64,000 nucleotides of DNA from Xestospongia muta (Eukaryota > Porifera > Demospongiae > Haplosclerida > Petrosiidae): positions 9,117,156-9,181,155 of the forward strand of contig OY848918.1 of assembly GCA_963693285.1 (NCBI GenBank). Direction: 5' to 3'. Each line of letters starts with the position of its first letter. Position 1 is the stretch's first letter. The translations under genes and the position numbers were made by a program. Below the pieces are notes generated by a model, which was given only the letters and a program-made list of their open reading frames with translations, did not search any database and was not told where the DNA came from. Positions 9,401 to 63,400 of the stretch are shown piece after piece.

Positions 9401-9700
9401 ACCAAAATCAAACACTTTGCTTGTATTTGGACATAATGTGGATTATAGTATTATCTAATATTGTATTTACTTTCAATTTTATGTCAACAATAATCTACAT
9501 ATAATTATAATTAGCTTTGTGTGTTATATGGTGTCAAAGACACTTGAGAAGCTTCTCAACTGACCAAGTATAGTTATGAATATTATTATTTAATATCAAT
9601 AAAAATTGACTGCTTAATTCAGTCAAACTTGCTCGGAGATATGTCCACTTTTTCTTAGATAGACTTGCATTAGAACATCTGATTCATATTTGCATCAGTA
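420..9700 (+). repeat. Satellite array, 12 units of about 790 bp with a five-unit higher-order repeat
   Basis: Using the ATG of ACATGTTATTGTCAAGTCAC as marker, units begin at 455, 1246, 2040, 2831, 3631, 4425, 5216, 6010, 6801, 7601, 8395 and 9197, giving lengths of 791-802 bp. Five-unit blocks recur at exactly 3970 bp (1246 to 5216, 2040 to 6010, 2831 to 6801, 3631 to 7601, 4425 to 8395). The block match breaks near 8725. Units differ by a 12 bp indel (TTTGTGGGTACA present or absent) and by GCG/GTG changes that tag their position within the block. Each unit holds an ORF of up to 79 codons, but this is interrupted by TGA in the units at 455, 3631 and 7601 and is judged non-coding. Edge units (455 and 9197) are the most diverged, as expected of unequal crossing-over. 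Confidence 0.95.
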
Positions 9701-13530: not shown

Positions 13531-15633
13531 TTAGTACACTACTAGTCTATTGTTCCAAAAATCACAAACATATAAATATCCTTCTCTGTCAAAAGTTATT
13601 CCAAATGGGCCATAAAACTGATCCATGTCGCTACCCTGTCCTCCAAAAAAACGTACAAACTGACCATCAGTTGTAAAGATAGAGATACGATGATTAACAG
13701 TCGATCCAATTGCCACATTCATTGGACAGGATTCTGTAACATATATTAGATCGTTATAATCGATTACAATCCCTGATGGGTGACTGAGTTGACCACTACC
13801 ATACCCATAAGCACCAAATTGAGACAAAAATTTTCCCTCAGGAGTAAACCTTTGGATACGATGGTTATATGTATCAGCCACATACACTATCTGACCTTGT
13901 CTGTCGATAGTAACATCTCTCGGATAACTAAGCTGTCCATCGGCTGAACCATTGGTACCAAATGTATGGGAAAAGGTTAGGTCTGGGTTTAAGACTTGTA
14001 TGCGATGGTTATATTGATCTGCAATATAAATCTTGCAATTTGTAGGAGAAATACTAATACCACATGGGTCATTAAATTCTAATTGACCGTTACCTTTCTT
14101 ACCAACTGATGAAACACATTTTCCATCCATAGATACCATTTGGATCTTGTGATCATCAACAACAGCAATCGTGTTATCTGGAGTAATGGCTATGCCACGA
14201 GGATTTATGAACTCAACATTTTCAGTTCTATACCACGATGACAAAAAATTACCCTTCTTTCCCAAAGATTTTACTTTCTTTTTATTTTGATCCAGTATTG
14301 TCAGGCAGTGTTCATCCTTTTCACTTACTATAAGATGTCCATCATTAACTGCTACAACAGCGTATGGTCTTTTAAGATCAGTTATAGTATGTGTTGGGAT
14401 GATGCTATCAACATAGGGATTAAAAGGAATCACGAATGAGGTGCTATCAACTTGGACATTATTAACTTGGACATTGACTTGATGATGACCACGACTTACA
14501 GTGCTACATTGTATTGTATACACTCCAGGATGGGTGGTGGTAGCGATTGTAGTAGTAATGGGTGTAGCTGTACCAGCTGATACTATGCTACAACTGAGTG
14601 ATGATAGAGGAACTCGAAGTAGACTGGAATCAGATAATTGGATAGATAAAGGGAATGAAACTGCTTTATCTTTAGTCATAGTAACACAATTGCTATCAAT
14701 CTCCTTCACTTTACACTGTTGTAGACATACAATGTTTCCAAGTGCATTAACATCGATATCTTTGTTAAAGTTAAAATGGATATCGACTTTTTCTATGGGA
14801 GTTAACTCTTCAATATTAACTCCTTGAGTCACATTTTTCATACGTTCCGTCATTTGTTTTTTAGAAGTCACCACACGCTGAGGATTGCCTATTTTAAGAC
14901 TCTTTTCCACAATTTCCTGGCATTCCTTGAGTTGAGCTAACTTTATTTTAGCTGATTTCTTTTGCTCTGATAGTACCTGTAGTTTTCTACCAGAAACTGT
15001 GTCTACCTCTTTTGTCAGCTGTCTCTCGCACTGGTGAAGAGCATCAACTATTTCTTTTACTGTAACATGTATCTCTCCTTTGACGACTTCTCCTTGTGCT
15101 CTGATTTCATTCTCTCTGTCAGAAAGAGCAACCAGGACACCTTCAACAGCAGCAACATTGCTACTAACTCCCTTCAGATCAGCTTCCAACATATGATAAT
15201 GTTTTGGATAGCAGGAAATGATTGGGTGATATTCATGATCTTTGTGCATATGTTTTACACAATCATGACAAATAACTTCTTCACATTTTTCACAAAAGAT
15301 ATCCAACATTTCATTATGACTATGACACTTTATTCCTTGCTCTTCAGAAAGCAATTGAGAGCCAGAGGTTAATAATGCTTTTTGAAAAGCTGCAGGAAAT
15401 CCAGGTACTCCTGTTGGTTCAGGTAACTGAGTATGATGACGACAAATGGGACAAGAGATGAAGTAATTATCTCCTTGAGGATCCTGTGGTAGACCCTCCA
15501 GACATTGTTGACAGAAAGAATGGAAACAAGGTAAGATCTTAGGGTTGGTACAGAGGTCTTGACATATAGCACAGGTGAGCTGTTCCTCTATTTTCTTGAG
15601 AGCTGGATTGTCACACACTGTTCTCTTTGCCAT
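13531..15633 (-). CDS. TRIM-A: RING/B-box2/coiled-coil/filamin/NHL E3 ligase lacking B-box1
   Basis: Intronless 700-residue protein of the TRIM-NHL (TRIM2/3/71-like) family, expected to act as a RING ubiquitin E3 with NHL-mediated target or RNA binding. The RING has C21, C24, C36, H38, C41, C44, C61 and C64, the complete C3HC4 set. One B-box of type 2 spans about 102-138, coiled coil about 145-260, filamin-type domain about 285-415, and six NHL blades about 416-700, the last ending NNRLVVY. About 70 residues that hold B-box1 in the paralogues here are missing between RING and B-box2. The start is the Met of MAKRTVCDNP, which aligns with MAE starts of paralogues. A GACCATATAAAG element lies about 116 bp upstream. 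The insertion SCPMNVAIGSTVNHR in blade 5 resembles one in the gene at 49244-55408, suggesting closer kinship with that gene's NHL. Confidence 0.9.
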   Translation of the reverse strand: MAKRTVCDNPALKKIEEQLTCAICQDLCTNPKILPCFHSFCQQCLEGLPQDPQGDNYFISCPICRHHTQLPEPTGVPGFPAAFQKALLTSGSQLLSEEQGIKCHSHNEMLDIFCEKCEEVICHDCVKHMHKDHEYHPIISCYPKHYHMLEADLKGVSSNVAAVEGVLVALSDRENEIRAQGEVVKGEIHVTVKEIVDALHQCERQLTKEVDTVSGRKLQVLSEQKKSAKIKLAQLKECQEIVEKSLKIGNPQRVVTSKKQMTERMKNVTQGVNIEELTPIEKVDIHFNFNKDIDVNALGNIVCLQQCKVKEIDSNCVTMTKDKAVSFPLSIQLSDSSLLRVPLSSLSCSIVSAGTATPITTTIATTTHPGVYTIQCSTVSRGHHQVNVQVNNVQVDSTSFVIPFNPYVDSIIPTHTITDLKRPYAVVAVNDGHLIVSEKDEHCLTILDQNKKKVKSLGKKGNFLSSWYRTENVEFINPRGIAITPDNTIAVVDDHKIQMVSMDGKCVSSVGKKGNGQLEFNDPCGISISPTNCKIYIADQYNHRIQVLNPDLTFSHTFGTNGSADGQLSYPRDVTIDRQGQIVYVADTYNHRIQRFTPEGKFLSQFGAYGYGSGQLSHPSGIVIDYNDLIYVTESCPMNVAIGSTVNHRISIFTTDGQFVRFFGGQGSDMDQFYGPFGITFDREGYLYVCDFWNNRLVVY

Positions 15634-15639
15634 AATAGG

Positions 15640-16011
15640 ATGTAGTGAGCAACAGACTCTTGGTGAAAAACAATCACAATGCTGTAGAGAAATGCTAAGA
15701 AAAGGTGGGATTAAATAATAATGCCACGGTTGCCACCCCTTTTTATGACCATATAAAGAATTACATAAGACTTATGACCTTTAGTGTTTATTGAAATGGA
15801 ATATGAATAATTATAATTTAATGAATTTATTTTACAGTGACATCTTACATTCCTGGAATCAAACATGTGACTTTCATGGAAATATGATTAAAACTATTAA
15901 TGAGAATATTATAATTACTACTAAGTATAGTGCATCCTTTTCCTCCTAAAGACATTTCTTTACTATTTCCAACATAAGACTGCACTAATGAAATGATCTA
16001 TAATATATATA
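15640..16011 (-). promoter_or_regulatory. TRIM-A upstream region
   Basis: Holds the motif CACCCCTTTTTATGACCATATAAAG (15735-15758), shared with the upstream regions of the other TRIM copies. CCATATAAAG is one base off a CArG box and could equally serve as the TATA element. The rest is AT-rich with no gene. Confidence 0.45.
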
Positions 16012-28668: not shown

Positions 28669-30924
28669 TCAATACACTACTAGCCTATTATTGTCATAAT
28701 CACAAACATACAAATATCCATCTTTATCAAATTTAATTTCGCATGGATGTTTAAATTGATCCTCACGACTACCTTGTCTTCCAAAAGTACGCTTAAAGTG
28801 ACCATCAGTAGTAAATATAGTGACACGATGATTGCCCAACTCGGTAACATACAGTAAACTATTATCATCTATTACGATTCCTGATGGATGATGCAGTTGT
28901 CCAGGACCAGCTCCTTGTTCACCAATCTGACACAAAAACTCTCCCTCAGGAGTAAACTTCTGAATACGATTATTATAAGTATCAGCCACATACACTAACC
29001 CTTTTCTGTCAATAGCAACAGTTCTTGGTTGTTTTAGTTGTGCCTCAGCTGATCCTTCTGTACCAAATTCACAAGAAAAAGTTAGATCAGATTCTAAGAC
29101 TTGTATACGATGGTTATTATAATCTGCAATGTAAATGTGCCCATTTAATGGAGAAATGGTTATGCCACAAGGGATATTAAATTCCAACGGTCCTTTACCT
29201 AGTCTTCCAAATGATGCAATACATTCTCCATCCATAGATATTTTCTGAATCTTGTGATTATCGGCAACAAGAATGAAATTGTCTGGAGTAATAGCTACAC
29301 CACAAGGAAAAGTTAAGCTGACATTTACAATCTCTCTAGCACTTTTATGACCAATAGCATTTACTTGTTCTCCATCTCTATCTAGTATTGTGACACGGTG
29401 GCCATTTCGCTCACTTACTATAATAGATCCATTATTAGTAAATGCAATCCCACAAGGTCTATTAAGTTCAGGTATTGTGTATAGTGGAGTTATGTTATTA
29501 AGGTAAGGATTAAAAGGAATCACTAGTGAGGTACCTTCAATATGGACACCATTAATGTTGACATTAACGTTATAACGACCACGATTTATATGGCTACAAT
29601 ATATTGTATACACTCCAGGTTGGGTGGTGGTAGTGATTGTAGCTTTGATTTGTGTAGCTGTACCAACTGGCACTACACTACAACTGAGTGATGATAAAGG
29701 AACAGTAAAAAGACTAGAATCAGAACATTGAATAGCTAGTGGGAATGTAACAGTTTTGTCTGTAGTGGCAATTTGATTATGACCAATCTTACTTACTTTA
29801 CACTGTTCTAGAACACTAGGTGATAGGTGAACGATATCTCCAATATGGGATAGTGTATTAAAAATGCTTCTATTTTTGATAAAGTGGATATCAGCCTTCT
29901 CTTTAGGAATGAACTCTTCAATGTTAACCTGTTTAGTCACATCAGTCATACGTTTCATCATTTGTGTTGTAGAAGTCACCAATTGTTGAGGACTGCCTAT
30001 CACAAGACTCTGTTCTACAAATTCCTGGCAATCCTTCAAATGATCTAATATTTTTTCAGCTGGTGTCTTTTGTTTAGATAACTCTTGTAGTTTACTACCA
30101 GTGATTGCGTCTACCTCTCTAGTCAGCTGTCTCTCAGACTGATGAATGATATCAATCATCTCTTCCGCCATGATATGTATCTCTTTTTTGACCACTTCTC
30201 CTTGCTCTCTGATATCACTCTCTCTATTTGTGAGTGAAATTAGGACATCAGTGACAGCAGTGGTACTTTCCCTAACTGGTTTCAAATGTTTTTTCAATTT
30301 TTGACAATGTTTGGGATAGCAGTCAGAGACTAAGTCATAATCATGATCTCTATGAATACGTACAGTACAGTGCTGACAGATGAGGTCTTCACATGTTTCA
30401 CAAAATATCTCCAAAGGCTTATTATGATTAGGACAGTTCATTTCTTGTTTCATGGGAAGTAATTGTGAAGTAAATGTTGCCACCTCATCAAGACTGGTTA
30501 CCATATGGTTAGTGTTGGTAGGAAATTTGTTGTGAAGACTGATACATTTTTCACATAAGAACTTAGCACAATCTTTACAATAACCTGTTGCATTTGTTGT
30601 AGTGCATATGTCACAGGTTACCAGCTGATGACCTGACATTTTGATCATTAGATTGTAGACTTCCTTGAGGTTGTTAATATGAAAAGCTGCAGGAAAGTCA
30701 GCTGCTCCTGTTGGTTTAGGTAACTGGGTACGATGACGACAGGTGGGACAAAAAATGTAGTTATCTCCTTGACAATCCTGTGGTAAACCCTCCAGACATT
30801 GTTGACAGAAAGAATGGAAACAAGGTAAGATCTTAGGGTTGATATAGAGGTCATGACATATAGCACAGGTGAGCTGTTCTTCTAGTTTTTTAAGAGCTGA
30901 GAAGGATACTGCTCCTTCTGCCAT
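28669..30924 (-). CDS. TRIM-B: complete RING/B-box1/B-box2/coiled-coil/filamin/NHL E3 ligase
   Basis: Intronless TRIM-NHL protein of 751 residues when started at the second Met (30922-30924, MAEGAVSFSALKKLEE), which matches the start of its paralogues; an upstream in-frame Met at 30960 would add 12 residues. RING at about 20-62 (CAICHDLY, CFHSFCQQC, CPTC), B-box1 at about 104-141 (CDICTTTNATGYCKDC), B-box2 at about 164-198 (CPNHNKPLEIFCETC), coiled coil about 200-320, filamin domain about 345-480 with no acidic insertion, and six NHL blades to the C-terminal NNRLVVY. All RING and B-box ligands are present, so an active cytoplasmic E3 is expected from family knowledge. It shares only the general layout with TRIM-C and E and is the more diverged paralogue. 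Confidence 0.92.
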   Translation of the reverse strand: MAEGAVSFSALKKLEEQLTCAICHDLYINPKILPCFHSFCQQCLEGLPQDCQGDNYIFCPTCRHRTQLPKPTGAADFPAAFHINNLKEVYNLMIKMSGHQLVTCDICTTTNATGYCKDCAKFLCEKCISLHNKFPTNTNHMVTSLDEVATFTSQLLPMKQEMNCPNHNKPLEIFCETCEDLICQHCTVRIHRDHDYDLVSDCYPKHCQKLKKHLKPVRESTTAVTDVLISLTNRESDIREQGEVVKKEIHIMAEEMIDIIHQSERQLTREVDAITGSKLQELSKQKTPAEKILDHLKDCQEFVEQSLVIGSPQQLVTSTTQMMKRMTDVTKQVNIEEFIPKEKADIHFIKNRSIFNTLSHIGDIVHLSPSVLEQCKVSKIGHNQIATTDKTVTFPLAIQCSDSSLFTVPLSSLSCSVVPVGTATQIKATITTTTQPGVYTIYCSHINRGRYNVNVNINGVHIEGTSLVIPFNPYLNNITPLYTIPELNRPCGIAFTNNGSIIVSERNGHRVTILDRDGEQVNAIGHKSAREIVNVSLTFPCGVAITPDNFILVADNHKIQKISMDGECIASFGRLGKGPLEFNIPCGITISPLNGHIYIADYNNHRIQVLESDLTFSCEFGTEGSAEAQLKQPRTVAIDRKGLVYVADTYNNRIQKFTPEGEFLCQIGEQGAGPGQLHHPSGIVIDDNSLLYVTELGNHRVTIFTTDGHFKRTFGRQGSREDQFKHPCEIKFDKDGYLYVCDYDNNRLVVY

Positions 30925-30960
30925 AATAACCTGTATAGAGACACCTGGTGTAAATAACAA

Positions 30961-43657: not shown

Positions 43658-46126
43658 TTAATACACTACTAGTCTGTTGTTGTCAGTATCACAAACATAC
43701 AAATATCCTTCATTATCAACTGTTATTCCAAATGGATGTTTAAACTGACCAAGACTGCTACCATATCCTCCGAATGAACGTACAAACTGACCATCAGTAG
43801 TGAAGATAGAAATACGATTATTATCAGACTCAGTAACATACACAAGATTCTTATTATTATCGATTACAATCCCAGATGGAAGATTGAGTTGTCCCCGACC
43901 TGATCCTTTAGTTCCAAATTGAGAATACAATTGTCCATCAGGAGTGAATACCTTGATGTGGTTATTGTAGGTATCAGCCACATACAAAAAACCTTGTCTA
44001 TCAATGGCAATGCTTTGTGGATGATTGAACTGTCTCTTAAATAATTCTTTTGTAACAAATGTGTGAGAAAAATTTAGATCAGGATTTAAGACTTGTATAC
44101 GATTGTTACCGAAATCTGCAATATAGATACAGCCAGTTATAGGAGAAACAGCAATTCCACAAGGTTTATATAAGTCCAGTTTTTTGTTACCTAGTTTACC
44201 ATATGATCTAATACGTTCTCCATTCATAGATATTTTCTGGATTTTGTGTTCATCAGCAACAATAATGTAGCTCTCTGAAGTAAAGGTTACGCCACGGGGC
44301 TGAGAGAACTTGAGCTTTTGACTTTCACTACTCTCTTGATGACCAAAGGATTTAACTTTTCTTTCATCTCCATCTAGTACTGTAACACGGTTGTGATGTA
44401 TTTCACTTACTATAATATGTCCATCATCAGTCACAGCAACTCCCCATGGATCTTTGAGTCCAGTTATAGTACGAAATGGAGTAATATTATCAAGGTAGGG
44501 ATTAAAAGGAATCACTACTGAAGTACTATCAACTTGGACACCATTAACTTGAACATCAACTTGATAACGACCACAGGCATTACAATGTATACTATATACT
44601 CCAGGATGATTGGTAGCAGTAATTGTAACTGTCATAGGTGTAGCTTTGTCTTCTTCGTCTACTTTTTCTTTTTCCTCCTCTACATCCTCTTCTTTTTCCT
44701 CCTCCTCTTCTTCATCTTCCTCTTCCTCTTCCTCTTCTTCTTCTTCTTCTTCTACCTCTTCCTCTTCTTCTTCTTCTTCTTCTACTTCTTCTTCTTCTAC
44801 TTCTTCTTCTTCTTCTGCTTCTTCTAAATTTTCTCCAATATCAACTGGAACTAGATTACAATTGAGTGATGAGAGAGGAACAGCTAGAAGACTGGAATCA
44901 GAAAATTGAATAGTTAGTGGGAATGAAACTGTTTTGTCTGTAATCTTAATGTCATGGTGATCAATCTTTTTGACTTTACATTGTTGCAGCATGGAAGATG
45001 AGAAGAACACAATATCTCCAATATGACAAAGTGGATCAACAGCATTACTATCACTTTTAAAATGGACATCAGCTTTCTCTTTAGGTTTCAACTCTTCAAT
45101 GTTAACCTCCTGAGTCACATGATTCATACTCTCCATCATTTGTTTTGTACATGACAATACTTGTTGAGGACTACCTATCTCGAGATTCTGTTCCACAAAT
45201 TTCTGGCAATCCTTTAGTTGACTCAATTTCATTTCAGCTAATTTCTTCTGCCCTGATAACACTTGTAGTTTAGTATCAGTGATTGTGTCTACCTCTCTAG
45301 TCAGCTGTCTCTCAGACTGACGAAGTACATTAATCATCTCTTCCACCATGACACGTATCTCCTCTTTGACCACTTCTCCTTGCTTTTTGATATCATTCTC
45401 TCTATTTGTGAGAGAAATTAGGGCATCAGTGACAGCATTGGTACTTTCCCTAACTGGTTTCAAATTTGTTTCCAATTTTTGACAATGTTTGGGATAGCAG
45501 TCAGAGACTAAGTCATAATCATGATCTTTATGAATACGTACAGTACAGTGCTGACAGATGAGGACTTCACATGTTTCACAAAATATCTCCAAAGGCTTAT
45601 TATGATTAGGACAGTTTATTTCTTGTTTCATGGGAAGCAATTGAGAAGTAGTAGAGGTTGCTACCTCATCAATATTGGTTACCATATGATTAGTGTTGGT
45701 AGGAAATTTATTGTGAATATCGATGCATTTTTCACATAAAAACTTGTTACATTCTTTACAATAACCTGTTGCATTTGTTGTAGTACATATGTCACAGGTT
45801 ATCGGTACCTGTTGATGTCCTGACACTTTGATCAGTAGATTGTAGACTTCCTTGAGGTTGTTAATATAAAAGGCTGCAGGAAAGTCAGCTGCTCCTGTTG
45901 GTTCAGGTAACTGGGTATGATGACGACAAGTGGGACAAGATATGAAGTAATTATCTCCTTGAGGATCCAATGGTAAATTCTCCAGACATTTTTGACAGAA
46001 AGAATGGAAACAAGGTAAGATCTTAGGGTTGGTATAGAGGTCAAGACATATAGCACAGGTGAGCTGTTCCTCTAATTTCTTAAGAGCTGAGGAGGAGGTT
46101 CTGCTGGGTACTGCTCTTTCTGCCAT
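43658..46126 (-). CDS. TRIM-C: complete TRIM-NHL E3 ligase with glutamate-rich insertion
   Basis: Intronless. The start at 46124-46126 (MAERAVPSRTSSSALKK) gives 822 residues; an in-frame Met at 46162 would add 12. RING (CAICLDLY, CFHSFCQKC, CPTC), B-box1 (CDICTTTNATGYCKEC), B-box2 (CPNHNKPLEIFCETC), coiled coil, filamin domain and six NHL blades ending DTDNNRLVVY. Within the filamin domain, between VPVDIGE and KATPMTV, sits an acidic tract of about 60 residues, mostly Glu, coded by GAA/GAG triplets (44645-44830). The filamin fold may tolerate it as a loop. CCATATAAGG lies at 46236-46245, 110 bp upstream. The N-terminal part is nearly identical to TRIM-E, but the NHL part matches the copy A pseudogene instead. 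Confidence 0.93.
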   Translation of the reverse strand: MAERAVPSRTSSSALKKLEEQLTCAICLDLYTNPKILPCFHSFCQKCLENLPLDPQGDNYFISCPTCRHHTQLPEPTGAADFPAAFYINNLKEVYNLLIKVSGHQQVPITCDICTTTNATGYCKECNKFLCEKCIDIHNKFPTNTNHMVTNIDEVATSTTSQLLPMKQEINCPNHNKPLEIFCETCEVLICQHCTVRIHKDHDYDLVSDCYPKHCQKLETNLKPVRESTNAVTDALISLTNRENDIKKQGEVVKEEIRVMVEEMINVLRQSERQLTREVDTITDTKLQVLSGQKKLAEMKLSQLKDCQKFVEQNLEIGSPQQVLSCTKQMMESMNHVTQEVNIEELKPKEKADVHFKSDSNAVDPLCHIGDIVFFSSSMLQQCKVKKIDHHDIKITDKTVSFPLTIQFSDSSLLAVPLSSLNCNLVPVDIGENLEEAEEEEEVEEEEVEEEEEEEEEVEEEEEEEEEEEEDEEEEEEKEEDVEEEKEKVDEEDKATPMTVTITATNHPGVYSIHCNACGRYQVDVQVNGVQVDSTSVVIPFNPYLDNITPFRTITGLKDPWGVAVTDDGHIIVSEIHHNRVTVLDGDERKVKSFGHQESSESQKLKFSQPRGVTFTSESYIIVADEHKIQKISMNGERIRSYGKLGNKKLDLYKPCGIAVSPITGCIYIADFGNNRIQVLNPDLNFSHTFVTKELFKRQFNHPQSIAIDRQGFLYVADTYNNHIKVFTPDGQLYSQFGTKGSGRGQLNLPSGIVIDNNKNLVYVTESDNNRISIFTTDGQFVRSFGGYGSSLGQFKHPFGITVDNEGYLYVCDTDNNRLVVY
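44645..44830 (-). repeat. GAA/GAG triplet tract in TRIM-C
   Basis: Imperfect triplet repeat coding for Glu with rare Val, Asp, Lys and Ala. The opposite strand gives artefactual Phe- and Ser-rich frames. Confidence 0.9.
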
Positions 46127-46159
46127 AATTAGCTGTAGAAAGACAGCTGGTGAATATAA

Positions 46160-48261
46160 CAATCACAAAGCTATATAGAGAGAAAAGCTATAACAAAATA
46201 ATTTTAACAAAGACAGAATTCCACCCCTTATGTGACCATATAAGGTATACAGTCATAGTAGTGGTATTTGTCAAAAGCTAAATTCCAAATGACTATATAA
46301 AGTATACAGCCATTGGAAATAGTTTTGATAATGTCATATTTTTGTAGTGACATCATCTAGTCTTACAATATAATGATACCACCCCATTTGCTGACCATAC
46401 AAAGTTAAGCTTGCCTCTCCTTCTTTTGACAAGCTCATGACTTAATTTATGCTAACATATAATGTAAATTAAGAAATAATAACAAGAAATATTATAACAT
46501 TAATTTGTACTATATCACATCTCATTTGATATTAAAGGACTCAGTAATCTTATATCCAGGCTATGGTTCTGTGAGTCTTTTATCCAGGCTGTGTTCTGTG
46601 TAGAAATAATTTAAATCTTTTCTGTAATATCACTACATCAACACTACTATATAATCTTGGGAGGATTTTTATAATTATAATCTTGTTATATAATACTTCA
46701 TATGTGTTCTATGTCCGGAAATAAAAGATAACACAACTTTCTTCAGTGATAGATATCTGCACAATTCAATGATAAATCTTACATGTAAGTCACTAACTGT
46801 ATGTGATAATAGCATCCTTCAAATTGAACATATCTTACATATACCTAGATGGTGATATACTAGCTTTTTTGTGTATGAGGTTTATGGCTTAAGAGCCATG
46901 TTTATCTGCAGGATATATACTAGAGATAGTACATAGTTCCATTATTCCAAAGAGTAGGAGATGGTAAACATCAGAGTAATATGTGGTTTGTGCAGTTTTC
47001 TGTGACAAGACATATTAACCCAGTGACATTTACCATACAAAACAACCAATTGAACAATGTCTAATTATTGATTCCATATGGATTTTGTTTTCTTCAAACA
47101 AAGAATCTGTTCTCAATTTTATTATGTATGACCACTCTATCAGTGTAACTATGGTAATTATGTATACAATAGATGTTAAAGGAGTTACTTATCACATTAT
47201 TCTTATACATCAATAAAGGAATAGTTTTTATTGCAAGGCATACCTACATGTTCTTAGTTACAAAGGCTAGCTAGGTCAAATGTATAGAAGCACAATTACA
47301 GATCACTGTACAAATCCTGTAGTAATCTAATGACACACACATTATTTACCACTGGATGTGATTATTGTGATCCTGACCGTCATCATATAGTTACTTTTTT
47401 GAATTGAAATAACTATACATTTATTATTAAAATATTATGGTATGTAATTGTACGTTTGTGATCATAAATATAACATATATTTCAGAAGGAACCTTTCATA
47501 ATTACACAGAAAATATCAATTAATATTTAATATACAAGTCACATATTACAAAAGTGTTGGTTGGTATTGCATAAAGAATTGCATGAACATAGATTGACTG
47601 CACGTATACTGATGTGATACTAACATGTGCTAGCATCCCATGATCTTAAGAAACTACATGTAATATCAATTGTCATTTAACATCATAGTGTATAACTATC
47701 AATACACAACTATGAAGCTATTCCAAATGTTAAATGTTCAGCTATAAAAAGAACGTGATCCAGCATTGATCAGTATTACAAAGTAACAATTTCCACTGTG
47801 ACTATTACTTTTCTGTCCCTCTAGTAATGTTATGTATTGTATGTTCACAAGTAAATATAATGCAACTGTCAGGTGTGCTAGGCAGTTGGATTACATGTTA
47901 TGTATAACTGTAATATCATTGACTGTAACTATTGAATGTTGTTGTAATTAAGTTAAATTACAAACTGTATTGAAGTGTTTTTATTTGTTTTAAGGATGTC
48001 AGATGGACATCATCAGTCAACATGTTAGAAGACCACCATGAACTTAATCACTTAGCACAAGTTGTTTTTATGGTACTTGAAGACATTTCTAAACCTTCAC
48101 AAAATTGTTTATTTGTCAAAACATATATATGTCAGTCACCCAAGGATTAAGACAATATGAGAAATACTAATAAAAGGAGAACACATATCTTGTAATTCAC
48201 AAGCTTTTAAAGAAGGAAAAGTATAAACCAAAGACTTAACTGTTAATGACAATTAACCTAT
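46160..48261. other. Intergenic sequence with TRIM promoter modules and dispersed repeats
   Basis: 46215-46430 has three successive versions of the GACCATATAA module (46234-46245 perfect; weaker at 46290 and 46394). 46610-46690 recurs at 52365-52455, and 47150-47330 recurs at 32975-33165. The remainder (47330-48260) is AT-rich with no supported gene. Confidence 0.4.
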
Positions 48262-49243: not shown

Positions 49244-52200
49244 TCAAAACACTACTATTCTATTATTGAACATATCACAAACATATAAATATCCTTCTCT
49301 GTCAATAACTATTCCAAATGGACCATTAAATTGATCAAAATCGCTACCCTTTCTTCCAAAAACACGTACAAGCTGACCATCAGTTGTAAAGATAGAGATA
49401 CGATGATTGAATGTCAATTCAGCACCTCTCCCGAATGCTGCCGGACAACCTTCTGTAACATACAATAGATTGTTCTTATCTACTACAATCCCTGATGGAT
49501 AAGTAAGTTGCCCTATACGAGATCCATAACTACCAAATTGAGACACAAACTTTCCCTCAGGAGTAAAACTTTGGATACGATTATTAGATAAATCAGCCAC
49601 ATACACTCTCTGGCCTTCTCTGTCAATAGCAACATCTCTTGGAAATCTAAACTGTCCATCAGCTGATCCTCTAGTACCAAAGCAGTGGGAGAAAGTTAGA
49701 TCTGGGTTTAAGACTTGTATACGATGGTTATATTGATCTGCAATATAAATTTGTCCAGTTATAGGAGAAATGGCCACACCACATGGGTCGTTAAATTTCA
49801 GTGATTCTCCCCCTTTCTTCCCAATTGATTTGATACATTCTCCATTCATGGATATTTTTTGAATCTTGTGATCATCACTAACAAGAATGAAGTTGTCTGA
49901 AGTAATGGCTACACCACGAGGATGAGAGAACTTGACATTTAAAGACATGACTTTCTTATAATTTTTATCTATCACTGTAACACTGTCACTATCTTTCTCA
50001 CTTACTATAATACTCCCATCATTAGTTACAGCAACTCCATAGGGTCTGTTAAGGTCAGGTATGGTACATACTGGAGTAATGTTAGTAAGATGAGGATTAA
50101 AAGGGATCACTAGTGTGGCATCACCAGCTTGGACATCATTAACAAGGACGTTAACTTGATGACGACCATTGGTCAATGGAGTACACTCTATTGTATACAC
50201 TCCAGGACGGCTATTTGTAGTCACTGTAGCTCTAATAGGTGCATAGTCAGCTTCACCAACCTGCACTATACTACATCCGAACGATGATGGGGGAACATTA
50301 AGGAAACTGGAATTGGAAAGTTGGATAGATAAAGGAAACGATATTGTTTTGTCATTAGTAGTAATATCTTGGCGACCAATATCTGTAATGATGCACTGTT
50401 GAAGAACACCAGGCGAGAAGAATGCTATATCTCCTATATGATGTCGTGTATCTGCAATGTTGCTTGTTTTGCTAAAGTAGATATCAGCCTTTTCTTTAGG
50501 AGTAAGCTCTTCAAACTTAACCTGTTGTGTCACATCATTCACTTGTTCTATCATTTGTTTTGTAGATGTAACCACTTCTTGAGGACTGCTATTTAAAGTC
50601 TGAGCTAAATGTTTCTCACATTCTTTCAATTGACTCAACTTCACATCGGCTAATTTCTTCTGCTTTGATAGCACCCGTAATTTACGTTGACTGATCTCAT
50701 CCACTTCTCTCTTTAGTTTGTCTTTAGACTGGTCAACAATTTTTTTCATTTCTTCTGCCATGACACCTATCTCCTCTTTGACTAGACTTTGCTGTTCTTG
50801 AATCATCTTTTCTTTTTCTGTGAGTTCAGCTAAAATCTTAGAAATTGCAGTGATATTCTCACTAACTGACTTTTGGCTTGTTTTTAAGTTTTGGCAATGT
50901 TCACGATAGTAGGCAGTGACTGAATCATAATTGTGATCTTTATGAATACGTTCTGTACAGTCTTGACATATGAGCTTATCACATGTACCACAATATATCT
51001 CCAAAGGTTTATCATGAGCAGAACAATTCATTGTCTCTAGCTGATGAGAAGATGACACTTGGTTACCTAAAAATGTGTAAATACATGTTAAAAACATAGT
51101 GATTGTTCTATTCACGCTGATAATATCTGTATATATATTATAGTAGAAATATGACGATTTACTTTCTCACATAAATAAAGCAATTTTAGTGAAAGATTTC
51201 TATTGTTAGGCATATCAATACTTTTAGTCTGGACATAACTAGATCTAGGTAAGTTTAATTCAGTTATAGATTGCATGCATATTACATGATTGATTAACAT
51301 GATTACAGCACATACTTTGTATCATTACAGACTGTAATAGTCTACACATTCAAGAGAATAAAGGAACCTTTTAAATCACACTTTCTCATCTTAAACCTCT
51401 GGATTAAATGCTTTAAATCATATACCTAATGAGCTAGATGGTGAAGATGTTGCAATAGCACTATTGATTTCTGATGAAGCACCACAAATTTCACTAGGTG
51501 TTTTAAATGACTTGGTAGAATCGGCATAGATCCCTGTAGCAGCTTTTTCTGATGACACATCATTGTCATCTACATATTACAAAGAAAACAGATGGTCAAA
51601 TTACTGAGCACTGGTTTTCATTTATTACCATGTTAGATAGATAGATTAGAAAATTATAACTTAGTTTATTCATAATACAATTATATTGTAATTGTTCCCA
51701 TAATTATTTTTTGACTCAATTGCTCTACTCCATGTCACCATTCAGCTATTATATACTTTCAATGGAAATCAACTTGCCTATAGTTAGATGTTGACGTATG
51801 TCATTAGCTTTTCTCTTATTATTAACAATAGGTCCTTCAACAGCGGAGATCACAGTTTCCCAGGTGACAGGAGATGGCATAGTTTCTATCCATTCGTTGA
51901 TTACTTTAGAGAGTTTTATGTTATTGTTGTTGGAAACTTCGTCTAAACCATCTATAAAATTTTGTGGAAGACTCAAGGCTAAGCCAATATCTCTCCATTT
52001 GCTGTTGACATCAGCTAATAGATTGAGAAGATCATGATGATCAGGATTCTCCTTTAAAACATCTGAGAAATAGACAGATAAAATTTAAAAAACAAATATT
52101 GGTTTTTGTAAGGAAAGAAGTTAGTAACTGAGAGAGGGAGTTTCTATGTATACAAATAATGTAAAACAATATATAAGTATCTATTATAAAGAAATAGAGA

Positions 52201-55200
52201 GTTGACTTTTATATCAATTTGTCTTCAGTCTTCTTTTAAAATTCAGTACATTTTAAATTAACAAAATTGTTGCATTTTAGGACTAAATATTTTAAGTAAT
52301 AGACATTCTGAGTTGTTTCACAGTGAGATCATGGAGTAATTATATGTAATGCTAATGTACAAATTTAAATTTTTTCTGTAATATTACTACATCAGCACCA
52401 TCAAACATTATTAATTTTGGGAAGATTTTAATAGTTATTATCTTGTTATATGCAAGACTATGCCAGCAGGCAATTGTATCACATGATATGTATACTTGTG
52501 CATCTGTAGTATGTATGGCTATTTGCTTCAACCATTCACTCATTGTAGCATTTCAAGCGATATGGTGATGGGTGTGACTAAACTGTCTCAATAGGTTCTA
52601 CTTTTAATGGATGTTCTGCAGACACTCCTTTGACCTTTGTCAATATTTCACCGTGAAGTCAACATCAATTTAAGGACAATTTTATCAATTACAATTTTGT
52701 TTACAGTCCTTAATGAAAGGCACTAAAGTGCCGAACCTCGCTGTAGTTTCTAAGTTATTTATAAATCCTATGCCAGCTTAGGCCCAGCTATGATGTTGTT
52801 ATTGCAAGAAAATTTATTAACATTCCAGAAGGTGTGGTTATAAAATGGCAAGCTTTGTCATTCTGTATATGCTCATTAATTGTTGCTTGATTTCTAGCTT
52901 TGCCATGTTTGTGAAGCAGTAACTGAATGAAATCACTAAAGTGCCGAACCTCGCTGCAGTTTCTAAGTTATTTATAAATCCTATGCCAGCTTAGGCCCAG
53001 CTATGATGTTGTTATTGCAAGAAAATTTATTAACATTCCAGAAAGTGTGGCTATAAAATGGTAAGCTTTGTCATTCTGTATATGCTCATTAACATTCCAG
53101 AAGGTGTGGTTATATAATAGTAAGCTTTGTCATTCTGTATATGCTCATTAATTGTTGCTTGATTTCTAGCTTTGCCATGTCTGTGAAGCATTAACTGAGT
53201 AAGTGATAGTATCATTCAATTGCCAAGCAAGATTAAGTGCTAATTTCGTGATGAAAAGTTTCTCTGAGTCTTTACATGACCCTTTAAAATGTATCAATAT
53301 TTCATATACAAAATTTATTGTAACTTGAAGATGAAACGTTCTTTGGAAACGTCCCGTAGTACAAATATAAATCGATATATTATCTATTAGTAGCTGTCTT
53401 TTCAGTGCTTGGAGACGTTTCCTGAATGCGTTACTTCGCTCCAAGTCCAAAAAACATTTTTCAGAACTTTTCTAACGATTACTTCGACCAATGGCCTTCT
53501 ATCTTGCTGATCCGTATTCCTCTGAGATTGTTTACAACATACTAAAAAATCTCCACGTTAAGTTTTTTACTTTTCGAGAAACGGCACTTGACCTCTGCAG
53601 CCTGAAAATTCTTTTGCGAGTTTTAAGCTTCTGTTTTTCTTGACGATGTTCTTGGCACTACTGTTGTAAAGTCCACATGCTTTTCTATTCGTTGCTAAAC
53701 GTTGGTAGCTGCTAATGCTTCGGTTGCCAAGTTATAGCAGTTCAAAAAAAACAACTCTGGTAACAGACACACACACACACACACACAAACAGACTACAGT
53801 ACCCTCGCTATGCGCCCACGCACAGCGAGGTTAATTAAGTGCTTGCTATATTATTCAAGAGCTACACATACTTACAATTATTGAAAGTACTAACAATGTA
53901 TACTGTCTTATCACTATGGTATATTGTCTTAATTACAATGGTATACTGTCTTAATTACTATGAAATTTAACAGTTCATTTCCTTAGGACATATGTCTGAT
54001 ATGAAAGGCTGTCAATTATAAATTCCACACCCAGCATCCATGAAAATTCTTGTGTCTAATTAATAAGGTTTCTACTGTCTACCTGGCTGTGATGGGCACT
54101 GCCTTAATCCCTTGGGCTCATTTAGTGATGCTACTATCTCTTCTAAGCCTGTCACTTCATTAACAGCTCACTCGTTAATGGATCAGTCTTCTCTGTGGAT
54201 GCTGGATTGGACCATATTGATTTCTCCAAGGATTGACTCTGCCTCTTCCCGCTCCATCGTCTCACCTCCTTCAGTTGAAGAGAGTGTTTGTGATGAGACT
54301 CATGCCTTAATAAGGTCTCCTTCCTGGATTGCGTTGGCATTTTGTAGCTTGAGCACGTGCGGCTCTCATACAGTCCCTGACTTTGCCGACTTTTTACCAA
54401 TGGCTAAACCAAATTTTCTATGGAATGATATTTATGGTGAATCTTTCTCATCTCTTGTTAAGTCCTGTTATGATGAGGTCGTTCACTGGAGAAGGAATGT
54501 TTTTAAAGTTCCTCATGGAAAGGTTGGCGTTTCTTTCGTACGTAAACAAGCTAGTAGTTTACTACCAAATAGTTGAAACCATGAGTAAGAGATAGACACT
54601 GATTCAACTAAACTAACTGGGTTAGCAAAGTTGAAATAGTATATACTCATGGATCAAGCCATGAACAAGGGTTTATACGTTTTGGGTTTTTGGGATTATA
54701 CATATCAAGTTAGACTAGTTTTGGCTTTGTGGTAACTTAGAATTAAGCTTCCATCGTATTGATGAAACTATATATGGTAATGAAGACCTTGGTTAAAATG
54801 TTTTTTAAATGAATTCTTAGTGTCTTATCCTGTATTGTATACATAAATGACTGTGCATGGATTGGTTAAATCAACCAATTTATTTTCTCATGCACTGTAT
54901 ATTGCAAACAATATTTTGCTAAACATACAGAAGTGGAACTACTTGTTGAAAGCTATGTGTATTCTGTTGCATAGTGAAAGGGACCAGTATTGTGAGACTA
55001 ATAGTTGCATATAACAATTGAATAAAATGAAGCAAGGGACAGACAAATATTTACTAGGTTGTCCAAAATGAGATTGAGCTACCTGGCATGCTTAACAAGC
55101 AGTAAAAACTGTCTTAGACGCATACCTGTTTTAGGTCCAGGATTGCTTTCAATATCACCCGATAAAATGAGGAGGAATGAGAAAAACAATATCAGACAGA

Positions 55201-55408
55201 GTGCTGAGAGTAGGTTTTTACAACCAGATTGTTCAGTAAGGAATTCCGGCCTCCTAGCAGCTCCACCCGTCTCCGCCAGACTAGTATCATTTCTGCATCT
55301 TTTGTTATATGATATTTGGTGACAACACCATAATCCAATGCTACTTCTCCATTGGCAAACATCAATCATGATGGTTGCAATGTTGTGTATCTTACGAGTG
55401 GAGTGCAT
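49244..55408 (-). CDS. Four-exon 2A / Death / B-box2 / coiled-coil / filamin / NHL protein
   Basis: Inferred exons: 55408-55126, 52062-51778, 51569-51426 and 51066-49244, all joined in phase 1, giving about 844 residues. Exon 1 ends in a hydrophobic stretch (CLILFFSFLLILSG) and the 2A motif DIESNPGP, followed by donor CAG|GTATG. Exon 2 is a Death domain (KWRDIGLALSLPQNFIDGLD, VINEWIE, TWETVISAVE) ending in a GC donor (G|GCAAGT). Exon 3 codes 48 Ser/Ala-rich residues. Exon 4 starts GNQVSSSHQLETM and has B-box2 (CSAHDKPLEIYCGTC), coiled coil, filamin and six NHL blades to NNRIVVF. There is no RING or B-box1. By family knowledge, 2A would separate the leader from the Death-NHL product during translation. 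The link between exons 1 and 2 crosses 3 kb of repeats and needs a transcript; exons 2-4 are firmer. Confidence 0.72.
51070..51425 (-). other. Intron 3 of the 2A/Death/NHL gene
   Basis: GT at 51425-51424 and AG at 51068-51067 (donor G|GTATATG, acceptor TTTTTAG|G). AT-rich, no other feature. Confidence 0.6.
52063..52720 (-). other. 3' part of intron 1
   Basis: Acceptor CTATTTCTCAG at 52073-52063. 52365-52455 is a dispersed repeat shared with 46610-46690. No further exon is seen. Confidence 0.4.
52721..53835. mobile_element. Repeat element with AACCTCGCTG ends inside intron 1
   Basis: Begins near GTGCCGAACCTCGCTG (52728) and ends with CACAGCGAGGTT (53820-53832), its inverted counterpart. The 5' portion is a 213 bp tandem duplication (CACTAAAGTGCCG at 52721 and 52934) plus a partial third copy. 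It also contains a 94-codon minus frame (53166-53450, unrecognised) and an (AC)n run at 53768-53786. The near-terminal TCGCTATGCGCCCACGCACAGCGA is a local palindrome. Confidence 0.5.
53836..54084. other. Intronic spacer
   Basis: AT-rich, with TACTGTCTTA repeated near 53900-53960. No gene. Confidence 0.3.
54085..54576 (+). pseudogene. Retroelement-like coding relic
   Basis: A 154-codon frame (54112-54576) ends in KPNFLWNDIYGESFSSLVKS, then CYDEVVHWRRNVFKVPHGKVG and FVRKQASSLLPNS. The EVVHWRRNxFxxPxGKxG block recalls N-terminal parts of sponge and cnidarian retroelement polyproteins; this is from memory and uncertain. It is antisense to the gene whose intron contains it, and no reverse transcriptase follows. 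Confidence 0.35.
54577..55078. other. 5' part of intron 1
   Basis: AT-rich. No exon or repeat is recognised. Confidence 0.3.
55133..55156 (-). other. 2A ribosome-skipping motif
   Basis: Codes DIESNPGP, a perfect match to the D-(V/I)-E-x-N-P-G-P signature, preceded by LLILSG. Skipping is expected between the final Gly and Pro. The Pro is followed by KT and the exon end. Confidence 0.88.
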
Positions 55409-57314: not shown

Positions 57315-58347
57315 TCAATACACTATTAGTCTTTTGTTGTTTTGATCACAAATATATAGAGATCTTTTGGCAAATATCATATTGCGAGGACAATTAAATT
57401 TACCGACATTGCTACCACACCCTCCGAATGAACGTACAAACTGACCATCAGTAGTGAAGATAGAGATACGATGATTATTATACTCAGCAATATACAGCAG
57501 ATTGTTATCATCTATAATAATCCCAGTTGGATAATGAAGTTGTCCAGGACCTGATCCTTTTTTGCCTATCTGAGATAAAAACTGCCCTTCATTAAATGTC
57601 AGGATACAATGATTATGATGATCAGTCACATACAGTAACCCTTGTTTGTCAAAAGCAAGACCATATGGAAAATTAAACTGTTTGCTGGTACCAAATGCAT
57701 AAGCAAAAGTTAGATCTGAGTTTAAGACTTGTATACGATTGTTACAACTATCTGCAATATAAATATGTCCAGTTATAGGAGAAATGGCTATACCACAAAG
57801 ACCATCAAATTCCAGTGGTCCACTACCTTGTTTACCAACTGATGTAATACATGTTCCATCCATAGATGTCTTCTGGATCTTGTCATGATCAGCAACAAGA
57901 ATGAAGTTGTCTGAAGTAATGGCTATACCACAAGGATAAAATAAACTGAGTTTTCCAAACGATCTTACTTTCTTTCCATTCCTATCTAGTATTGTGACAC
58001 AGCGTGCATTACTCTCACAGACACTTACTATAATATGTCCATCATCAGTCATAGCAACTCCCCATGGATCGTTAAGTCCAGTTATAGTACGTAATGGAGT
58101 AATATTATCAAGGTAGGGATTAAAAGGAATCACTACTGAAGTACTATCAACTTGGACACCATTAACTTGAACATCAACTTGAAAACGACCACAGGCATTA
58201 CAATGTACAGTATATACTCCAGGATGATTGGTAGCAGTAATTGTAACTGTCATAGATGTAGCTTTGTCTTCTTCGTCTACTTTTTCTTTTTCCTCCTCTA
58301 CATCCTCTTCTTCCTCCTCCTCCTCTTCCTCTTCCTCTTCCTCTTCC

Positions 58348-58391
<44 letters not shown>

Positions 58392-58423
58392 TTCTTCTTC
58401 TTCTTCTTCTTCTACTTCTTCTA

Positions 58424-58463
<40 letters not shown>

Positions 58464-59783
58464 TTCCTCTTCTCCTTCTTCTACCTTTTCTCCAATATCA
58501 ACTGGAACTAGATTACAATTGAGTGATGAGAGAGGAACAGCTAGAAGACTGGAATCAGAAAATTGAATAGAAAGTGGGAATGAAACTGTTTTATCTGTAA
58601 TCTTAATGTCGTGGTGATCAATCTTTTTGACTTTACATTGTTCCAGCATGGAAGATGAGAAGAACACAATATCTCCAATATGACAAAGTGGATCAACAGC
58701 GTTACTGTCACTTTTAAAATGGACATCAGCTTTCTCTTTAGGTTTCAACTCTTCAATGTTAACCTCCTGAGTCACATGATTCATACTCTCCATCATTTGT
58801 TTTGTACATGACAATACTTGTTGAGGACTACCTATCTCGAGATTCTGTTCCACAAATTTCTGACAATCCTTTAGTTGACTCAACTTCATATCAGCTAATT
58901 TCTTTTGCCCAGATAACACTTGTAGTTTAGTATCAGTGATTGTGTCTACCTCTCTAGTCAGCTGTCTCTCAGACTGACGAAGGACATCAATCATCTCTTC
59001 CACCATGACATGTATCTCCTCTTTGACCACTTCTCCTTGCTCTCTGATATCATTCTCTCTATTTGTGAGAGAAATTAGGGCATCAGTGACAGCATTGGTA
59101 TATTCCCTAATTGGTTTCAAATTTGTTTCCAATTTTTGACAATGCTTGGGGTAGCAGTCTGAGACTAAGTCATAATCATGATCTCTATGAATACGTACAG
59201 TACAGTGCTGACAGATGAGGTCTTCACATGTTTCACAAAATATCTCCAAAGGCTTGTTATGACTAGGACAGTTTGTTTCTTGTTTCATGGGAAGCAATTG
59301 AGAAGTAGTAGAGGTTGCTATCTCATCAATATTGGTTACCATATGATTAGTATTGGTAGGAAATTTGTTGTGAATATCAATACATTTTTCACATAAAAAC
59401 TTGTTACATTCTTTACAGTAGACTGTTGCATTTGTTGTAGTACATATATTGCAGGTTATTGGTACCTGTTGATGTCCTGACACTTTGATCAGTAGATTGT
59501 AGACTTCCTTAAGGTTGTTAATATGAAAAGCTGCAGGAAGGTCAGCTGCTCCTGTTGGTTCCGGTAACTGGGTATGATGACGACAAGTGGGACAAGAGAT
59601 GAAGTAGTTGTCTCCCTGAGGATCCAATGGTAAATTCTCCAGACATTGTTGACAGAAAGAATGGAAACAGGGTAAGATCTTAGGGTTGGTATAGAGGTCA
59701 AGACATATAGCACAGGTGAGCTGTTCCTCTAATTTCTTAAGAGCTGAGGAGGAGGTTTTGCTGGGTACTGCTCTTTCTGCCAT
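57315..59783 (-). CDS. TRIM-E: complete TRIM-NHL E3 ligase with the longest glutamate tract
   Basis: Intronless, 822 residues from MAERAVPSKTSSSALKK. RING (CAICLDLY, CFHSFCQQC, CPTC), B-box1 (CNICTTTNATVYCKEC), B-box2 (CPSHNKPLEIFCETC), coiled coil, filamin domain and NHL repeats. The filamin loop holds about 75 mostly Glu residues (58267-58490). Residues up to HIIVS in the first NHL blade are nearly identical to TRIM-C; from there the blades differ strongly (ESNARCVTILDRNGKK), and the end is NNKRLIVY. The change is abrupt at about 58025. CCATATAAAG lies at 59869-59878, 86 bp upstream. The 3' end of NOMO is about 0.7 kb upstream on the same strand. Confidence 0.93.
58267..58490 (-). repeat. 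GAA/GAG triplet tract in TRIM-E
   Basis: Longer than the TRIM-C tract and purer, with rare Val, Gly and Asp codons. Likely length-variable between individuals. Confidence 0.9.
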
Positions 59784-59868
59784 AATAGTGACACACAGTG
59801 AATATAAGAATCACAAGGCTATTGAGAGAAGGATGCTAACAAAGACAGAATTCCACCCCTTTTTGTGA

Positions 59869-60473: not shown

Positions 60474-63400
60474 TTATCTTCCTCTTCCTCCTCTGGATAA
60501 CTCTCTAGTATTTCCAATATAAGACTGAATTATTGATATTACCTAATAATAGATAAATAGGTTTAAAATGAGTTTCTATTATCCATTCATACTTCTATCA
60601 GATCATCCATCAATTCATCTATCATATATCCATACCTTATCAATATTAGCTAAACCAAATACTGCAGCTACTGCTAAAAACAGACCAACAAATGAACCTT
60701 TAAATACAGCACTCTCTTTTGATGATATAACAGACTAAACAAATAGTAATTATAATAAGACTGTCATATAATTGGTGATATTAACATCAAAGGTTACACA
60801 AAAACGGAAATCTGGGAATGAGGCTATAAGGACAATATTTATACTGACCTCATCAGCTGATACATGAAGTGTTATATGTTTATCTTCATCAGCCAAAAAA
60901 GACAGGTTAGTAATACTACTGACAGATATTTTATGAAGTGTGTGACTACTTTCTACTTGAACAGTGTATTCTCTCTATAGATATAGAGATATAATAGACA
61001 TGATGTATAATATGTACTAGTGGTAATCCACTTACTGAAGGGTTTAGTGGTAACTTAGATAGACTAAAGAACCCCATAGGATCAGGTGTTGTTGTATAAA
61101 CTATAGACTCCATATACTTATCACTGTATAACACAACCTAATAACTATTAATAACTAGTACAATCTATATTAATATTAGTACCTTTAATGAGTTCAGTAA
61201 TTCTAGATCATTAATTACTATATTACCAGTCACTGTAATTTTAGTAGGTTTAAATATAGCTAAGAAATTCTCTTCACTGATGTCATTTTCTGTAACCTTC
61301 AGAGTGTGTGTGTGTGAGAGAGATCAATTATTATTCCTTTAACATAACATTTATAACTGACCTTTACAAGTCGAGATATAGGTAGTCCTCTTTCAATAGT
61401 GGACTCTTTGTCTGTAGCCAGTGATATCTGATAGTCACAATGAGGCTACAACAGTGTAAGAGAGAGACTAAATTTTTGCATTAAACATTTTGTCATACCT
61501 GAAGTCCTCTAAATCGATATATACCATCTTTATCAGTGATTACTACATCATGAAACTCATTGCATGGACTGTTAATATCTATCGTAGTTAATACCTTAAG
61601 GATATCAAGATAAAGAGAGAGACATCAATTTACAAATAATACTTACAGTGACTGTTATTCCTTCTAGTGGTGTTCCATTGAGAGAAGTCACTTTACCACT
61701 ACAACTAATGGTATATATAGACAATGAGTGCATAAATATTTTAACTGTTTTTGTACTTACCTGAAGGCAACTCTCTTTGCAGTGAACTCTACTTTCATAT
61801 GTTCTCCTTGATTTAACTCTATAACCTGTAAACACACAGAACAACATGATGACATACAGACACCCACACAGTAATATGATCAGACAAACAAATACAAAAG
61901 AAAATAGTAAATACAACAATAAAATAACAATAAAATAGACAAATACAACAATAGATGACAATACTGACATATTGATGTATGTACCTTGGAGGAAGGCTGG
62001 AATTCAAACTCTCTCAATAATGGTTTTATATAATACTGACCAGGTGACTAAAGTAATAACAAATATATGCAATAATACAATAATGATATAAGACAGTAGT
62101 GTATTGTATATTACTTAATATATGACACTATTATATCATACTATTATTATATCAAATGTACATGTACATCTCACAGTAGTAATATCATATATGAGTCATT
62201 CAAACTACATCATATGAGACATGTACATGTATACCCAATACTATTGTATTAATAGTATTATATCACATGAGTCATTATGTGTATGTGTATACCCAATACT
62301 ATTGTATTGATAGTATTATATCACATGAGTCATTATGTGTACATGTACATCCAATACTATTGTATTGATAGTATTATATCACATGAGTCATTATATGTAC
62401 ATGTATACCCAATACTATTGTATTGATAGTATTATATCATATATATATACATTCAAACTAACTATATCAATGTGAACTAGAACACCATCTTCATTAGTTT
62501 TATTAGAACTTCTCATATCTTCTCCACTAACAGATACTAACACACCAATGAGTGGTTCAGTAGATAACTTATCAATTACCTACAATAATATTATAAATAA
62601 TATTTTAGCTCGTGACTTTAAAATTTATCTGTTTGTCCATTCATCATCTATCTGCCCATCTATCAATTTACCTACCTATTTATCCATCCATCCATCCATT
62701 TGTCTGTTTGCCAGTCCATCCATCCATCCATCCATCCATCCATCCATTAATCTGTCTGTTTGCCAGTCCATCCATCCATCTATCCATTGTACTTTGATAG
62801 TGAGTTGAGATTTCTTCATAGCTTTAAAAGAATATATGTCATTTTCTAATGGTTCAAATACATACTGATCTAAACTAGCACTCTGTAGAGAGTGAGAGAC
62901 ATTTATCAACACATACACACAATATCTTACCACCGTATGGTGAACTGTTCCTGGTAATGGACCTGCTTTGTATGTCCCCTTTTCATCAGTTATTACCTCA
63001 ATAGCTGGGTCACTGGAATTGGTTACTATGGTAACCAGGACACCTGCCAGAGGAGGTTCTATGTGACCTGTGATAAAGAGTCCCTCCATACAATGAAATG
63101 AAGGAACTACCTCTGGACAATCTAAAGGAGAAGAAGGGGGAGAAAGAGAGATATTTGAAGTTACACAGTCTGGTCACTAACCTTCTCCAACAGTATAAGT
63201 CAGTTTCTCTGGTGAACACAACAGTTTTTTAGATTGAGGAGTAATTACAGCTACTGATCCAGGTCTATAATGAAACTCAATACAAGTAGTGTAATAAGAT
63301 GATAAAATTACTTGGCATTAAAAGAATATTGATGGACAATATCATCATCTGATAATCTTGAGTTAGTAATAAATGGTTTTAATATTTGAGTCTCACTTTT

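Follow-up and report, generated by a model that had tools for sequence, protein, structure and literature searches.

The window analysed here is a stretch of 64,000 nucleotides from the sponge Xestospongia muta (contig OY848918.1, positions 9,117,156 to 9,181,155). On its minus strand it carries a gene that appears to join a leader ending in a 2A ribosome-skipping motif to a Death domain and a TRIM-NHL body. The gene probably belongs to a large family of immune-type sponge genes with a Death fold, whose members would share a leader-2A first exon, a phase-1 join to a Death exon and variable downstream parts, with ribosome skipping as the most likely role of the 2A element. We give this reading a probability of about 0.76. 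In the window gene, the variable part is predicted to be a TRIM-NHL body that resembles those of the local array and has no RING. The surprise is a genome-wide first exon rather than one chimera. The initial annotation, made from the window alone, had treated the gene as singular. Its chimeric anatomy stands, and its leader turns out not to be unique but common to 146 matches in the genome. Unless stated otherwise, positions are those of the window, and places elsewhere in the genome are referred to by L numbers.

The four minus-strand exons first proposed for the window gene are present with usable splice sites, and all three junctions between them are in phase 1 (Table 1). The joined frame is open over 831 residues. 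The leader runs from MIDVCQWRSSIGLW through a spacer and a hydrophobic stretch (Kyte-Doolittle mean 2.27) into SGDIESNPGP and a phase-1 donor. LLILSG directly precedes DIESNPGP, and the leader contains both the StopGo core D(V/I)ExNPGP and the supporting L-rich upstream context. The donor of exon 2 is GCAAGT, giving a GC-AG intron instead of one starting with GT, and the same is seen in the relatives L028, L059 and L070. The intron between exons 3 and 4 measures 359 bases, has consensus splice sites and keeps the frame. Pfam finds no RING in exon 4, where the filamin match is weak (E 0.003, below the cut-off). NACHT has no match in exons 2 or 4, and no NACHT hit of the genome search falls in the window. 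A 2A leader on a RING-less Death/TRIM-NHL gene, as originally proposed, is borne out by exon reading, Pfam and the family profile at the level of the predicted gene.

Table 1. Predicted features of the leader-2A-Death-TRIM-NHL gene, in window positions
Feature	Position	Strand	Remarks
Exon 1, leader and 2A	55126..55369	-	ATG at 55369; 81 codons plus one base
Donor of exon 1	after 55126		GTATGC, phase 1
Leader N-terminus MIDVCQWRSSIGLW	55328..55369	-	family form MIDxxQWRxxIGxW, from the alignment of 40 distinct leader exons
Hydrophobic stretch KNLLSALCLILFFSFLLIL	55163..55219	-	19 residues; its end lies ten residues ahead of the motif's last P
2A element SGDIESNPGP	55133..55162	-	bond between G and P expected to be skipped
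Intron 1	52063..55125	-	GT-AG, phase 1, about 3.06 kb; direct repeats at 52721-53198
Exon 2, putative Death domain	51778..52062	-	phase 1 at both ends; GC donor
Exon 3, Ser/Thr-rich linker	51426..51569	-	48 codons; phase 1
Exon 4, B-box2, presumed coiled coil, filamin-like part and NHL propeller	49244..51066	-	stop codon 49244-49246
B-box zinc finger PF00643	50918..51031	-	Pfam, E 2.8e-10
NHL repeat region PF01436	49247..49957	-	bounds approximate; Pfam, E 5.1e-26

The 81-residue leader was searched against the 158-Mb assembly, and the 146 matches come from the 150 of 170 candidates that were scored. The exact DNA pattern for D[IVM]ExNPGP occurs once in the window and 150 times in the genome, with 0 matches for the reversed control. 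The base composition of the window would lead us to expect about 1.5e-5 occurrences for the window and 0.04 for the whole genome, so the motif is far more frequent than chance predicts. Overlap between leader and motif was compared for the 100 of the 150 pattern places that were listed, the remaining 50 entering as a total. The 89 leader matches in this part of the genome include 79 with the exact motif. The other 21 listed pattern places fall outside leader matches and were all read by eye. Nine are further leader-like copies (L011, L024, L080, L081, L083, L086, L087, L091, L092). In eight of these a GT lies no more than about 10 bases from the motif, and in some the front is degraded or missing. 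Leaders are 65-79 residues long in the 40 that were read, and a hydrophobic stretch precedes the motif in each (Kyte-Doolittle means 1.63-2.99), ending a median of 10 residues before the final P. In 40/40 distinct leader exons with the motif, the GT that comes first behind NPGP is in phase 1, usually seven bases on; L043 was left out of this set because its start lies outside the sequence piece. Leader and window-protein queries found no relative among 5.8 billion protein sequences. A search of viral contigs returned two short partial matches to leader residues 23-49, which were taken as chance.

Retroelements appear to account for some of the other 2A copies. Nine of the 21 places outside leader matches appear by eye to be retroelement or unrelated sequence (L012, L022, L025, L026, L027, L079, L084, L085, L090). 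At L012, L022, L026, L027, L079, L084, L085 and L090 the 2A is followed by a zinc-finger-like stretch, and L012 and L022 also show frames resembling endonuclease and reverse transcriptase by eye. The 2A of non-LTR (long terminal repeat) retrotransposons resembles that of the leaders in having the same octapeptide, also after L-rich stretches. The retroelement-type copies read here differ in their upstream part, which has no QWR front, and they continue straight into the zinc-finger-like stretch with no donor right after the motif. Three more places (L082, L088 and L089 at C4:3350325, C9:3767260 and C9:3787043, with L093 grouped with them) run from the 2A into a short Cys-rich tail and have no nearby donor. 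One of the three has the same leader start, and such copies are possibly a repeated element carrying the leader.

What follows the leader was read at 24 distinct loci (25 names, with L002 and L028 being one place). The loci were not sampled at random: they comprise the strongest matches, those that come first on contigs 1-3 and some picked by hand. A Death-domain exon follows in 20 of the 24, and in ten of these it lies only 52-65 bases behind the motif. Nine of these 20 fed the two hidden Markov models used (L030, L051, L052, L054, L055 and L056 for one; the window gene, L004 and L057 for the other), leaving 11 independent loci. Leader-linked Death exons of the window type have a phase-1 acceptor in 10/10 cases. 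Because order and phase recur across loci, the leader-2A-Death join is supported by paralogs and not by an open frame alone. The same recurrence speaks against a caveat of the initial annotation, namely that the 2A exon might join another gene or belong to a retroelement: leaders elsewhere carry the phase-1 GT and then Death exons, and L028 keeps the order.

The association is one-sided at short range. Of the 146 leaders, 35 have a NACHT hit on their own strand within 3 kb downstream, 4 have one upstream and 0 have one on the other strand; with the 150 scored Death hits, the numbers of leaders are 24, 0 and 0, respectively. A leader lies within 8 kb upstream of 46 of the 98 NACHT hits. Leader-led NACHT frames were found at L013, L017, L019, L020, L023, L024 and L030, and leader-led ankyrin proteins at L021, L051, L054 and L056, with a weak TRADD-like_N match at L054 (E 0.0037, below the cut-off). 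Pfam scans of L024 and L030 detected no leucine-rich repeats behind NACHT, and the leader-NACHT genes are therefore not called NACHT-LRR here. At L011 (C1:568584), a variant leader MVDISIWRARIGLF... with a 2A stands upstream of TPR and CHAT frames.

The match of exon 2 to known Death domains is weak but consistent, and its assignment stays putative. By itself, exon 2 of the window gene has no Pfam Death match at E up to 1. A total of 150 of 1709 candidate relatives in the genome were scored, and when a profile of 15 family members from this genome is compared with the PDB, Death-domain chains of FADD rank highest (best E 0.0043). At E up to 1, the profile matches 14 PDB chains, 11 of FADD and 3 of THOC1. 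Pfam Death is matched at E up to 1 by 8 of the 15 members, with a best E of 0.0016. A second, related exon family behind other leaders scores above the Pfam Death cut-off in three of five exons scanned (L030, L052, L055) and below it in L051 and L056, and the two families cross-match. A single-sequence AlphaFold model of exon 2 (pLDDT 54) was too weak for a structure search.

The nearest paralog, L028, adjoins the window on the left and has leader, Death and linker exons in the same order as the window gene. Protein identity between the two leaders is 94%, with a ratio of nonsynonymous to synonymous substitution rates (dN/dS) of 0.22, and the Death exons are 72% identical. The linker exon of L028 is homologous, shorter and has conserved splice sites, and its intron 1 measures about 1.17 kb compared to about 3.06 kb in the window gene. 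Past the linker, L028 continues into a frame that is TRADD-N-like by eye and resembles the pre-ankyrin region of other members, with no Pfam hit. Further downstream lies a separate TRIM-NHL gene bearing a RING. As L028 shares the first three exons only, the window gene looks like an L028-type front combined with a local TRIM-NHL body.

The window holds four other TRIM-NHL genes, and exon 4 is 51-55% identical to them in an alignment that begins at the B-box nearer to their NHL part. The window gene and these four share the B-box, filamin-like and NHL parts and differ in that the window gene has no RING and carries a Death domain and a 2A leader. RING was found by Pfam in both window paralogs scanned, and a RING-like cysteine pattern is present in all four. 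NHL is a plausible recognition part. The four genes are single-frame and lie on the minus strand at 13531-15771, 28669-30960, 43658-46162 and 57315-59810. Two TRIM-NHL genes of the window have long Glu-rich insertions near the filamin part, and the array contains segmental duplications that are 89-95% alike, for example at 21.7-24.2 kb and 38.1-40.5 kb.

Leaders show uneven constraint along their length. Ratios of nonsynonymous to synonymous differences (pN/pS) were obtained from 332 close pairs of 780 among 40 aligned leader exons. They are 0.29 for the first 15 columns at the N-terminus, 0.49 for the hydrophobic stretch, 1.08 for the spacer and 0.15 for the 2A, the last value being biased low since the exons were picked by exact motif. 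Of the ten among 89 leader matches without the exact motif, four are interrupted by in-frame stops and a fifth is a fragment of 30 residues. Another four (L014, L015, L016 and L018, at C1:14532586, 14541176, 14545862 and 14575830) end in NPAT or NPIN and have a broken or truncated Death-exon match behind them; they seem to be genes in decay whose 2A has been lost. The motif-less leader at C4:4802778 is the one exception without such an explanation. In-frame stops occur in two of the 79 leaders that keep the motif. The 2A is thus lost mainly where the gene itself decays, as nine of ten motif-less leaders look decayed or fragmentary, and decayed copies can keep the 2A.

The closest known system is the sea-urchin SpNLR2A, a 26-residue 2A-like N-terminal signal present on 14 of 87 NLRs according to the relevant parts of Roulston et al. 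2016 (PMC4981915). There, the leader recodes at about 80% in vitro, and a non-recoding mutant goes to the Golgi. By description, the two systems are alike in having an N-terminal hydrophobic stretch that leads into D(V/I)ExNPGP before Death/NACHT-type receptors, and a split between cytosol and secretory route would be expected in both. Sponge leaders differ in their 65-79 residues, in the MIDxxQWRxxIGxW front and in forming an exon of their own with a phase-1 end. The sponge set also has many more copies, and its downstream parts include ankyrin and TRIM-NHL types. The kind is known from the sea urchin; in the sponge it takes a new and much larger form, in which the leader front is conserved and the exons are shuffled.

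Lineage expansions of Death and TRADD-N proteins with variable ends such as ankyrin repeats are described for Amphimedon in the relevant section of PMC8195603. The sponge family here is similar in its N-terminal Death-like domains, TRADD-N and variable ends including ankyrin, and it differs in that TRIM-NHL is not among the sponge ends named in that section. Neither '2A-like' nor 'signal peptide' occurs in the main text of PMC8195603, and NPGP and signal peptide are absent from the main text of the demosponge NLR paper PMC12909245. L-rich stretches ending in A/S/C-G before D are a StopGo class described in the parts of PMC12846837 devoted to such classes. The L-rich stretch of the window leader, ending in SG before D, fits these classes, and StopGo/2A is described in the same source as rarely used in cellular genes. 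Among the passages of PMC5009743 that deal with StopGo, none concerns sponge genes. The initial annotation had taken 2A leaders to be already known in sponge NLR-type proteins. Open-access PubMed Central full text, in part among the matches listed, yielded no report of a 2A in sponge genes, NLR-type or other. We make no claim of first discovery. Rao et al. 2025, which reportedly surveys the 2A sequences of eukaryotes and viruses, Odon et al. 2013, said to treat the 2A of non-LTR retrotransposons, and Yuen et al. 2014, reportedly on sponge NLRs, could already report sponge cases.

We suggest the following mechanism for the window gene and its relatives. At the 2A, most ribosomes would skip the bond between G and P, and the receptor would be made as a separate cytosolic protein starting with proline, with the leader freed as a peptide of about 78 residues. 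Where skipping fails, the hydrophobic stretch would stay attached and emerge from the ribosome, and the fusion might be directed to the membrane of the endoplasmic reticulum (ER) or into the secretory route. Because its end lies about 10 residues before the bond, the hydrophobic stretch would still be inside the exit tunnel at the time of skipping. We infer that the skipped leader would behave like a tail-anchored protein and that the unskipped product would present a signal anchor to the signal recognition particle.

Several observations weigh against the reading of a skipping leader on a Death-fold family. The window motif reads ESNPGP, with S for the L of the usual family form ELNPGP. No annotated spliced protein with the leader was found among the 5.8 billion sequences in two leader-query searches. 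A Death hit is absent at four of the 24 loci, although at L003 and L005 only 1.5 kb downstream was read; the others are L053 and L024, which has a weak CARD-like exon and then NACHT. At 8 kb, the NACHT association is less one-sided, with a hit downstream of 45 leaders, upstream of 20 and opposite for 3 (27, 3 and 0 leaders for Death hits), and upstream NACHT counts at this distance would be given by dense arrays. Exon 2 is less constrained than the leader (dN/dS 0.65 between the window gene and L028). In-frame stops in 17 of the 146 leader matches indicate that part of the family is decayed. The selection of exons by their motif, as noted, lowers the 2A value, and the tail-anchor step is drawn from geometry only.

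Three other explanations have to be weighed against the proposed family. Exons 1-3 might open one gene and exon 4 might belong to another, a RING-less TRIM gene, in which case the Death-NHL chimera would not exist. The join of exon 3 to exon 4 is indeed the least supported junction. The same three exons of L028 lead to a TRADD-N-like frame while its TRIM-NHL gene has its own RING, and B-box/NHL frames appear only at the window and L028 among the 24 leader loci, several of which have just 1.2-1.5 kb downstream. One ATG immediately precedes the B-box, and the intron before it contains a second. Exons 3 and 4 are nevertheless in phase across a 359-base intron with consensus sites, and exon 4 starts close before the B-box without a RING, making such a split unlikely. 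A 2A exon that is part of a retroelement and lies near a Death exon by chance is highly improbable. Retroelement-type 2As do exist in the genome, such as L012 and L022, and among the three Cys-rich-tail places without a nearby donor is one with the same leader start. Against this, leader and Death exons are found in the same order, strand and phase on several chromosomes, and the leader of the window gene and L028 is under constraint. A retroelement origin of the window exon 1 was rejected on these grounds, given also the Death exon behind its donor. No read-through of the 2A into a retroelement frame was found in the window gene, where the donor lies seven bases past the motif and is followed by the Death exon.

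The leader might also serve as a membrane anchor or signal only, with a 2A-like end that does not skip, so that one fused protein would enter the secretory route. The hydrophobic stretch before the motif in the 40 measured leaders would suit such an anchor. Death domains in the ER lumen would be unusual, which speaks against it. The motif is also the most constrained segment, even if its pN/pS is biased by the selection of exons, and nine of ten comparable leaders without it look decayed or fragmentary. Together with the in vitro recoding of the sea-urchin leader of the same kind (PMC4981915, in the part on recoding), these points make a non-skipping leader distinctly unlikely.

Two further features of the window lie outside the gene family. 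A tandem array at 408-9694 has a unit of about 790-800 bases with copies about 97-99% alike, and an exon-like frame at 62676-63173 on the minus strand matches a NOMO1-like (BOS complex) domain with E 1.9e-15.

A skipping 2A would raise the prospect that the leader is a product itself. Each gene would then make two proteins at a fixed ratio, a tail-anchored microprotein with a cytosolic MIDxxQWRxxIGxW part and a free Death receptor, and if the 2A failed, the receptor would go to membranes instead. Such failure might arise when translation is under stress or a virus interferes with the ribosome, and the repertoire could in this way register the state of translation. This two-protein idea is tentative and somewhat unlikely. 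It is compatible with the leaders because the N-terminal motif is constrained, whereas a simple signal sequence could do without such a motif.

If one animal genome has some hundred or more first exons with leader and 2A on putative Death-fold genes, this would be a very large cellular use of 2A. This count is based on 79 leaders with the motif and nine leader-like places in the listed part of the genome, plus up to 50 unlisted motifs, some of which are perhaps retroelements. Immune-type genes led by a 2A would now be present in sponge and sea urchin, as might result from deep ancestry, convergence or exon transfer. The many natural leader variants are available for the study of skipping and targeting. 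If the two-protein idea is true, the entire immune repertoire of an animal would be set up to monitor the state of translation.

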